This document shows positions 18,035 to 41,032 of a stretch of 64,000 nucleotides of DNA, in pieces. The translations under genes and the position numbers were made by a program. The stretch's first letter is position 1. The number at the start of each line of letters is the position of its first letter. This DNA is from Natrinema sp. DC36 (lineage in GTDB: Archaea > Halobacteriota > Halobacteria > Halobacteriales > Natrialbaceae): NCBI RefSeq assembly GCF_020405225.1, contig NZ_CP084472.1:1116001-1180000 (forward strand), read 5' to 3'. Under the pieces are notes generated by a model that saw only the letters and a list, made by a program, of their open reading frames with translations, made no database searches and was not told the DNA's origin.

Positions 18035-19507
<1,473 letters not shown>

Positions 19508-19561
19508 CAGACCGGGATCGGGGCGTCGCCCCGACCCACCTTAGCGGATTGCGATTGCGGT

Positions 19562-19624
19562 TCCACGTTCGATCGACCAGCGACCGGCCGATCGGGCACC
19601 TTAGAACTACCAAGGTTCACATCC
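19562..19624 (+). other. 16S rRNA processing stem, right arm
   Basis: Pairs with 17896-17960 (TCCACGTTCGAT..., ending ...ACTACCAAGGTTCACAT). It lies between the 16S 3' end and tRNA-Ala. Confidence 0.85.
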
Positions 19625-19658
19625 AACTCCGTGCCTGTCTCGATCATGAGACGGGCGT

Positions 19659-19730
19659 GGGCCCATAGCTCAGTGGTAGAGTGCCTCCTTTGCAAGGAGG
19701 ATGCCCAGGGTTCGAATCCCTGTGGGTCCA
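19659..19730 (+). tRNA. tRNA-Ala (anticodon TGC)
   Basis: A 72-base cloverleaf in the 16S-23S spacer: acceptor GGGCCCA/TGGGTCC, D arm AGCTCAGTGGTAGAGT, anticodon stem CCTCC/GGAGG with loop TTTGCAA (TGC), and T arm CAGGGTTCGAATCCCTG. The terminal CCA is not encoded beyond the partial CCA overlap. A spacer tRNA-Ala(TGC) is standard in haloarchaeal rRNA operons. Confidence 0.97.
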
Positions 19731-19870
19731 TGTCTCGGAGGACAACCGAATCGTGCCCCTTAAGTGGGGCAGACGATTTCGGTTTAATCCGAACAACAAC
19801 CGATGCACCAGCCCGTGTAAACGTGGCTGGGAAGGGTTAATGCATGCCGCGTCTACGGCGTGCAGATGAG

Positions 19871-19920
19871 ACCGTGTGTACGTGTAGTCCAGGCGTCCAC
19901 TGGACCCGTTCCCGGGTCAC
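19871..19920 (+). other. 23S rRNA processing stem, left arm
   Basis: ACCGTGTGTACGTGTAGTCC and the following 30 bases are nearly the reverse complement of 22903-22952, forming the helix that brackets pre-23S rRNA. Confidence 0.85.
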
Positions 19921-19961
19921 TCTTGAATTACAACTGCAGGTTGCAATTCAGATCCGATGAA

Positions 19962-22877
<2,916 letters not shown>

Positions 22878-22902
22878 TCATACATTACATCGCATTGGAT
22901 CC

Positions 22903-22952
22903 GTGACGCGAGAACGGGTCCGGACGTAAACTGGACTACACATACACACGGT
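22903..22952 (+). other. 23S rRNA processing stem, right arm
   Basis: Pairs with 19871-19920 across the 23S gene (GTGACGCGAGAACGGGTCCG ..., ending ACACACGGT). Confidence 0.85.
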
Positions 22953-23054
22953 TTTGGACACACCACCGATTACGGTTTCTTGGACGGAAGTCCAAGGCTC
23001 GGAAGACGTGACATAGTCTTCCGTTGGACAACGGTTCGATTCCGTTGGTCGGCG

Positions 23055-23176
23055 TTAGGGCGGCCACAGCGGCGAGGTCCCTCCCGTACCCATCCCGAAC
23101 ACGGAAGATAAGCTCGCCAGCGTTACGGTGAGTACTGGAGTGCGCGAGCCTCTGGGAAACTCGTTTCGCCGCCTCC
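23055..23176 (+). rRNA. rrf: 5S ribosomal RNA
   Basis: A 122-base RNA starting TTAGGGCGGCCACAGCGG and ending CGCCGCCTCC. The helix I ends are complementary, and the loop regions CCCATCCCGAACACGG and GGAGTGCGCGAGCCTCTGGG match haloarchaeal 5S. It is the last rRNA of the operon; no tRNA-Cys follows. Confidence 0.95.
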
Positions 23177-23193
23177 ACTCATATTCATACTTC

Positions 23194-39921: not shown

Positions 39922-40332
39922 TTACCGATCGGGACGAGGGGCGTTTTCCGCGGCGTCGACCTCGTCCGGTTTCTCTACGCGCGAGTAGAGTTCTTGCCAG
40001 TGTTCCTCGACGAAGACGTCGTTCCGGTCAAAGAGTTCACGAGCGCTCTCCGTAAGACCGTAGAACTTGCTTGGTTGGTCGTTCGTCCGCTGCCCGCGGG
40101 GGAACGCGACGACTTCGACGACCCCTGCGTCGATGAGGGTATTCAGATGGTCGCGAACCGTCGTTCGGTGTAGCCCGGTCGTGAACTCCAACTCCTTCAT
40201 CGAGGGGAGGGACTGCGGGTGGGCGACGATGTCCGCAACGATGTCTCGGCGTGATTCTTCTGCCAGCGCTTCAGCGACGCTAAAGAACCGTGTATCGTCG
40301 CGAGGGGCAGCCGAAGCACCAGTCCGTGGCAT
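39922..40332 (-). CDS. Winged-helix transcriptional regulator
   Basis: A 136-residue ArsR/MarR-like regulator: FFSVAEALAEESRRDIVADI, then the HTH SMKELEFTTGLHRTTVRDHLNTLIDAGVVEVVAFPRG and a wing ending FYGLTESARELF. ATG at 40332 (MPRTGASAAPRDD) is favoured over the frame start at 40425. It faces the gene at 40439 across a ~106-base shared promoter region, so it may regulate that gene and itself. Confidence 0.8.
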   Translation of the reverse strand: MPRTGASAAPRDDTRFFSVAEALAEESRRDIVADIVAHPQSLPSMKELEFTTGLHRTTVRDHLNTLIDAGVVEVVAFPRGQRTNDQPSKFYGLTESARELFDRNDVFVEEHWQELYSRVEKPDEVDAAENAPRPDR

Positions 40333-40438
40333 CTCACTCGGACGTACAGGTTCCGCATAGATAACGATGTGGGGCGCCACCCACATCAACGAGCTAAGGT
40401 TTAAAGATTGACTAGTGTCGGGCAATCAGCGCTTCGTA

Positions 40439-41032
40439 ATGGCCGAGGATCGATTGCAGCAGCTTATCGAGGACACGCTCACGTACTCCGAGAGAGGGGA
40501 GGCGGAATTGAAAATCGAGGACTATCGATCCCTTCGACGTGCACTTCACACGGACGTCCTCGATATAATCGCTGCTGACCGGTCGTTTTTCGTCCTCGGA
40601 AGTTACAACGACGAGGAAAAACGCCGTCTCGGGAAAACCGTCGAGCAGCTCTACAATGATGGACATGCATTTCTGTTAGATGATACACTCGAGGTGTGGG
40701 AAAACTGGACGACGCACTTCAAAATCTACGCGGATCGGGCAACGCACATCATCGGCGTGTTCGAACACGCTGACGGCGGCCACGAGTGGGAAGCTGGATA
40801 CCTGGACCATCGCGAATATCGGCGGAAGACGTACATCTTGAAGCGTCGGTACCCATCGACGGTGCCGACAGACGAACCATTCGACGGGATGATGGCCCAC
40901 TACATGCTCCTCGTGGACCGACGCGGACAGCTCGTCGAATGGGACGGCGACGAAAACGCGTCAGCGGCCGAATTAGAACGCAGTCTCGAAGCCGCAATCG
41001 ACGAGTTCCGCGATTCTGAGCTCTCCTCGTAG
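40439..41032 (+). CDS. Unknown protein with SLOG/TIR-like nucleotide-binding look
   Basis: A 197-residue soluble protein. An N-terminal helical part (1-45) leads to an alpha/beta domain: SFFVLGSYNDEEKRRLGKTVEQL (49-71), ATHIIGVFEHADGGHEWEAGYLDH (101-124) and KTYILKRRYPS (130-140). The strand, helix and charged E-x-G (HEWEAGYLD, 115-123) order resembles TIR-like and SLOG-like nucleotide-binding folds, in which an acidic residue before G/Y is catalytic. A TTTAAAG box (~40399) gives leaderless spacing to ATG at 40439. Function is not established; this is shape-based inference. Confidence 0.55.
   Translation: MAEDRLQQLIEDTLTYSERGEAELKIEDYRSLRRALHTDVLDIIAADRSFFVLGSYNDEEKRRLGKTVEQLYNDGHAFLLDDTLEVWENWTTHFKIYADRATHIIGVFEHADGGHEWEAGYLDHREYRRKTYILKRRYPSTVPTDEPFDGMMAHYMLLVDRRGQLVEWDGDENASAAELERSLEAAIDEFRDSELSS

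Follow-up and report, generated by a model that had tools for sequence, protein, structure and literature searches.

The locus lies in Natrinema sp. DC36 (genome 5.1 Mb), within a window of 64,000 nucleotides (G000:C1:1116001-1180000; the whole stretch of DNA that was analysed), and consists of two genes that point away from each other. The plus-strand gene starts with an ATG at 40439, ends at 41032, and encodes an alpha/beta protein of 197 residues, of which about residues 45-197 form a predicted NDT/DNPH1/TIR-like fold. The minus-strand gene encodes an ArsR/PadR-like winged-helix regulator of the same family as PDB 3U1D. Its reading frame ends at 39922 and extends without a stop as far back as a TTG at 40425. 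In the alignment, the homologues begin at an ATG equivalent to that at 40332, and the gene is therefore taken as 39922-40332 (136 aa). The divergent intergenic region has 106 bases (40333-40438).

Both genes were found as the first-pass annotation had described them, and the product of the gene at 40439 contains GVFEHADGGHEWEAGYLD as stated there. The acidic residue singled out in that annotation is E118 (codon 40790-40792), and the glutamate of the preceding FEH is E109 (codon 40763-40765). The two ORFs are a genuine gene pair: a chance pair is ruled out because homologues occur in 249 of the 391 genomes of the class and because the AlphaFold2 model has a mean pLDDT of 90 and a pTM of 0.87. 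The relatives that carry the pair, referred to below as named loci, are haloarchaea. Elsewhere in the window, a complete rRNA operon (16S, tRNA, 23S, 5S) at 18035-23177 accounts for a dip in G+C to 0.55.

Fold and invariant residues of the plus-strand protein

The AlphaFold2 model of the plus-strand protein, built from a 37-sequence alignment, has an N-terminal helical hairpin (about residues 1-45) and an alpha/beta domain with five strands (49-54, 76-79, 103-108, 131-137, and 165-169). The alpha/beta (Rossmann-like) layout proposed at first pass is thus borne out at a mean pLDDT of 90. Structural kin were ranked with VIA-align, which is a re-examination of Foldseek's own hits rather than an independent search. 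The best match is DNPH1 (8rpt_B; Z 13.3, rmsd 2.5, 130 residues), followed by TIR-STING (9lmq_B; Z 12.1), a 2'-deoxyribosyltransferase (7o62_D; Z 11.8), the SPARTA TIR (8spo_I; Z 11.8), the TIR domain of IL-1RAcPb (7fcc; Z 11.5), and the CMP N-glycosidase MilB (4jel; Z 11.1). All of these matches cover residues ~45-197. The Foldseek E-values are weak, the best being 5.2e-4 and the range about 5e-4 to 1e-3. The BFVD matches are headed by unnamed proteins and by viral deoxyribosyltransferase annotations. From these structural matches the modelled fold is assigned to the nucleoside-deoxyribosyltransferase/TIR superfamily, an affiliation that is out of reach of sequence alone. The doubly wound alpha/beta fold of NDT/DNPH1 (PF05014) is present in the model; the TIR fold is present also, but non-specifically, as it is the same general fold as that of NDT.

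Sequence profiles are silent on this affiliation. At E<=1, no family of Pfam, NCBIfam, or PADLOC matches the 40439-41032 product. When 37 family members were scanned against Pfam, PHROGs, and PADLOC, only stray matches were obtained (best E in PADLOC, 0.014). PF05014 is absent from the 10 Pfam families matched by any of the 37, and the TIR Pfam profile is matched neither by the protein itself (E<=1) nor by these members. A search of PDB sequences gave no significant match, and in hhalign the family reached E 0.2 (not significant) against four haloarchaeal DNPH1/NDT-like proteins and E 0.12 against eight haloarchaeal TIR_2 proteins. Since tests of profile membership were negative, the protein is filed under neither PF05014 nor TIR. 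The genome of the window has matches above cut-off to TIR_2 (PF13676) at G000:C1:1378919-1379179 and G000:C4:144566-144868, the former of a type that occurs in most searched genomes of the genus.

The first-pass annotation had called the product TIR/SLOG-like. Structure prediction and fold search do place TIR domains among its structural kin (Z 12.1 and 11.8, with DNPH1 best at 13.3), so that the description "TIR-like" is correct at the level of fold. The SLOG half of the description finds no support. The SLOG motif is Gly-Gly-x-Gly-Thr-x-x-Glu (GGxGTxxE), and membership in this family (SMF/DprA-LOG) was rejected because the motif is missing: the corresponding loop reads DGGHEWEAG, with a family consensus of GGHxWExG. 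LOG and DprA chains do not appear among the best 50 VIA-align matches of the model.

Conservation was examined in 71 non-redundant relatives of the plus-strand protein (pairwise difference >10%). Eight residues, G54, Y56, R63, E109, E118, G120, R136, and Y138, do not vary among the 71, and F94, W168, and L71 are each kept in 70. E118, whose conservation the first-pass annotation had made decisive for its reading, is therefore invariant. The codons fall into three groups, namely G54-x-Y56 ... R63 (40598..40627), at the end of strand 1 and in the following helix; E109 ... E118-x-G120 (40763..40798), after strand 3 and at the start of the next helix; and R136-x-Y138 (40844..40852), at the end of strand 4. 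In the model, strands 1, 3, and 4 have most of the invariant residues at their C-terminal ends or immediately beyond; R63 is in the helix that follows strand 1, and F94 is also helical. The C-terminal strand ends, where these residues gather, are the active-site location of the NDT/TIR-type fold.

The comparison with DNPH1 gives this site a possible chemistry. E118 pairs in hhalign with the glutamate of the GVGYELG motif in haloarchaeal DNPH1-like proteins, an alignment that is not significant, and R136 with the Met that follows it is likewise in register in this weak alignment. We take the glutamate of GVGYELG to be the counterpart of Glu104 of human DNPH1. Asp80 of DNPH1 is 24 residues before Glu104, and the same spacing in the plus-strand family leads to F94 (70/71), a correspondence judged by spacing only and not by side-chain superposition. 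Glu104 is the nucleophile of the human enzyme and Asp80 the acid, with Tyr24 completing the triad (PMC10603095). The triad is not retained as such in the plus-strand family, because the position of Asp80 is that of F94 by spacing. By analogy, an active site like that of a nucleotide or NAD N-glycosidase may be built on E118 and E109.

Pairing, distribution, and loss of the two genes

Pairing was scored in 132 intact copies of the plus-strand gene, drawn from loci L001-L145 and L192 (here and below, duplicates are counted among the loci except where a set is called non-redundant). The regulator is within 1500 nt in 123 of them and divergent in 121, which confirms the divergent arrangement noted at first pass. 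In the genome of the window, all four plus-strand copies have a winged-helix gene divergent alongside, and the regulator profile finds these four intact genes, one gene with three stops, and three weak matches. The gene with stops, a fifth regulator copy (G000:C1:2000576-2000908, L197), has no partner gene within the stretch examined. At L005 the two genes are co-directional. The copy at L192 has two regulators, and was scored non-divergent because the automatic scoring took the closer one; the more distant regulator is divergent to it. Nine copies are without a near regulator. L008 and L192 are one locus seen twice, with a regulator 2.7 kb away that is 74% identical to that of L009; at L123 the contig ends 363 bases off; L055 and L091-L093 are frameshifted copies from a single plasmid lineage; L072 retains a remnant of the regulator; and L090 is the last.

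The distance matrices of the two proteins are strongly correlated (r 0.97, 71 pairs; a value as high was reached in 0 of 2000 permutations), although the nearest neighbour agrees in only 30 of the 71 pairs, and the correlation probably rests largely on shared subfamilies. The alignment behind the contig profile scan was that of the L003 subfamily, and the 80 named loci are for this reason biased to the L003 branch. When 83 loci were collapsed to 60 neighbourhoods, the regulator cluster was present in 57, making it the conserved partner among the genome neighbours, a point that the first-pass annotation had left to be looked up in relatives. The next recurrent cluster, antisense ORFs aside, is a replication-initiator-like ORF (18/60), which we read as Orc1/Cdc6; it is annotated so beside the pNG600 copy. 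The other recurrent ORFs near the pair were read as antisense to the two genes. A third partner or a larger operon was rejected because only the regulator and, far behind, the replication-initiator-like cluster recur. The two-gene unit is a real and widespread haloarchaeal module, conserved in pairing and in divergent order.

Homologues of the plus-strand protein occur in 73 of the 86 genera of the class, a query of the L003 type matches 123 of 194 genomes, and a sample of the phylum gave matches in 30 of 294 genomes, of which only G586 lies outside the order. The family is represented in 83 plasmid records and has several copies per genome, four in the genome of the window. The listed annotated copies are all "hypothetical protein", next to an unnamed, helix-turn-helix, or ArsR-type gene. 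A full-text literature search found no paper on the family; subscription journals were mostly outside its coverage, which leaves absence unproven. In Haladaptatus halobius, the gene after the pair (L211:11002-11685) is annotated as RNA 2'-phosphotransferase, a type of enzyme that uses NAD. The non-haloarchaeal G586, of the same phylum, encodes a 368-aa protein (L191:2744-3850) with a related domain in its C-terminal half that reads VIVLGKYSD ... GHIAEYEY (hhalign E 1.3e-5; no Pfam match). A search of 58 genomes of its class gave no relative in any other genome, and this solitary protein, the only candidate bridge outside the haloarchaea, was rejected as one. A viral origin was also considered and rejected, as neither 50,697 phage records searched by tblastn nor a scan of viral contigs gave a relative of the plus-strand family.

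In eight annotated plasmid neighbourhoods, the flanks vary and include replication, metal resistance, and glycosyltransferase genes, so that nothing points to defence islands as the customary setting of the pair. Restriction/helicase genes adjoin it in only one of the eight. The absence of recurrent defence neighbours from these regions agrees with the first-pass remark that nothing else of a defence island is present.

Gene damage was inspected at 31 loci, L059 and L105 being left out of the count as they end at contig edges. The plus-strand gene is broken beside an intact regulator at six loci (L031, L058, L062, L088, L094, and L107), of which L062 and L107 look like a single case. Contig-edge and displaced cases excluded, only L072 and L090 have an intact plus-strand gene but no intact regulator close to it. 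At L087 the plus-strand gene has a stop and the regulator is absent. One plasmid lineage without the regulator (L055, L056, L060, L061, L091-L093, and L095-L100) has broken plus-strand copies only, with at least two different frameshifts (break points at residues 139/140 and 157/158). The gene was therefore broken more than once in this lineage, and the different break points rule out a programmed frameshift. The stretches of this lineage are 92-98.6% identical across several genera (~3.3 kb common to all, up to 8 kb in some) and carry a replication-initiator-like gene. The numbers are small, and the pattern of loss fits a gene that is useful only with its regulator or costly without it.

The regulator and its putative operator

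The regulator of the window scores just above the cut-off of HTH_20 (PF12840, ArsR-like; 27.4 bits against 27); the regulator of L003 scores 34.5 bits and that of L002, at 25, falls below. The top Foldseek match of its structural model (pLDDT 81) is 3U1D from Halomicrobium mukohataei (E 9.2e-8, TM 0.76/0.73), which the family profile of the regulator also matches with E 2e-31. When the 3U1D sequence was searched against 145 genomes, an identical gene was found in one, and a member of the plus-strand family (L201:2068-2682) adjoins it in divergent orientation. Ten loci came from this search; eight have the partner, broken at L210, and none is present at L203 and L204 in the stretch examined. 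PDB 3U1D is thus a regulator of this family, encoded beside a plus-strand family member.

The intergenic region contains a palindrome, GATGTGGG-GCGCCA-CCCACATC (40366..40387), which is a putative operator common to both genes. In the closest orthologues, aligned over the region, the half-site AACNATGT is retained in 4 of 4 intergenic regions, and the other half-site is largely retained. At L005, where the gene order is altered, the palindrome yet remains upstream of the regulator. The palindrome of the window is weak when considered alone (an equal perfect arm in 26 of 2000 shuffles; a looser score equalled in 36 of 300). That of L006 is near-perfect, with 1 of 300 shuffles as good, and those of the other three of the four regions are individually not significant (32-36 of 300). 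In a separate subfamily (eight regions), a different block is conserved, around TTTCG-N8-CGAAT. In another subfamily, the upstream regions of L015 and L012 show, by eye, repeated GGTT...AACTG-like elements, perhaps a tandem operator.

In the 5.1-Mb genome the exact palindrome pattern is present only once; a regulon search found no second exact site. With up to three mismatches, 56 matches were obtained vs 12 for a reversed control, an excess that we attribute to base composition and to the counting of palindromic sites on both strands. To judge from these sequences, each regulator may autoregulate locally via its putative operator.

Possible function and comparison with known systems

The reading we favour, with confidence about evenly divided between its being right and wrong, is that the plus-strand protein would be an enzyme akin to N-glycosidases of nucleotides or NAD, kept in check by a repressor of its own that also regulates itself, the pair often being plasmid-borne. 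What we infer of catalysis, substrate, repression, signal, and the biological role of the pair runs as follows. By analogy with its superfamily, the protein would act on NAD or a nucleotide by cleaving its N-glycosidic bond; E118 would be the catalytic glutamate, with E109 nearby. The substrate may be held by Y56 together with the loop of Gly54, and phosphate may be bound by R63 and R136. The winged-helix regulator would bind the palindrome between the genes and control both its own promoter and that of the enzyme, most simply as a repressor that is relieved by a signal.

The protein might instead be a TIR-type NADase effector, toxin-antitoxin-like or antiviral, whose action is to deplete NAD or to produce a cyclic ADP-ribose signal, and which the regulator silences. 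Consistent with this are a fold that includes TIR NADases, the invariant glutamate, the spread over 83 plasmid records with several copies per genome, and the six loci with a broken enzyme and an intact regulator, vs L072 and L090 alone for an intact enzyme without a regulator. However, PADLOC gave only stray matches, the eight annotated plasmid regions have no recurrent defence neighbour, relatives were found neither in the 50,697 phage records (tblastn) nor in viral contigs, and the asymmetry of loss is small and also fits a gene that simply depends on its regulator. We consider such an effector unlikely, and hold the same doubt of the wider picture in which haloarchaea-wide NAD- or nucleotide-cleaving effectors, each with a 3U1D-family repressor, would move between replicons, the pair being a plasmid-borne antiviral or addiction module.

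That DNPH1 is the top structural match, with MilB and deoxyribosyltransferase following among the TIR domains, could also mean that the enzyme is a DNPH1- or MilB-like hydrolase of nucleotide pools or salvage, its gene induced by the substrate via the regulator, and serves in housekeeping or damage cleaning. The weak in-register alignment of E118, R136, and the next Met with haloarchaeal DNPH1-like proteins points the same way. This is nevertheless quite improbable, since the acid Asp80 is not kept (F94 by spacing), the patchy presence (249/391 genomes) and frequent plasmid location are unlike housekeeping, and true DNPH1-like genes are separate in relatives (L147-L150). Highly doubtful is a non-catalytic sensor of nucleotide or of NAD/ADP-ribose that would act with the winged-helix protein as one signalling device: the very tight pairing and co-inheritance, and the lack of a third conserved gene except plasmid replication genes, would suit it, but the fold has two invariant glutamates at its catalytic edge, which suggests chemistry and not just binding.

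With the link to the NDT/TIR fold, the eight invariant residues, and 3U1D as regulator, the function is directly testable. The family may prove to be an archaeal branch of the nucleotide- and NAD-cleaving enzymes of salvage and immunity. Approximately two thirds of the sampled haloarchaeal genomes carry the plus-strand protein, the listed annotated copies of which are named only as hypothetical.

Among known systems, DNPH1/RCL (2'-deoxynucleoside 5'-phosphate N-hydrolase, PF05014 superfamily) shares the fold (Z 13.3) and, in the weak alignment, a glutamate that starts the helix after strand 3. It differs in that the plus-strand family has no profile match and has Phe94, by spacing, at the Asp80 position, and in that the protein adds the N-terminal helical hairpin (1-45) and is tied to a winged-helix gene. 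The TIR NADases (TIR-STING, SPARTA TIR-APAZ) share the fold and probably a conserved glutamate in the corresponding helix region, whereas the plus-strand protein is stand-alone, without a sensor domain and without a TIR Pfam match. 3U1D is of the same regulator family, and its gene is likewise divergent from a plus-strand family member; it stands further off within that family, and its PDB entry is that of an uncharacterized winged-helix protein. The DUF4062 TIR-like NADases "Swarozyc" are described as antiphage defence proteins (PMC13174449). They resemble the plus-strand family in having a TIR/NDT-like domain, recognized by a combined sequence and structure search, and one conserved glutamate; they are a separate family, and the plus-strand protein, unlike them, is part of a two-gene unit with a transcription regulator.
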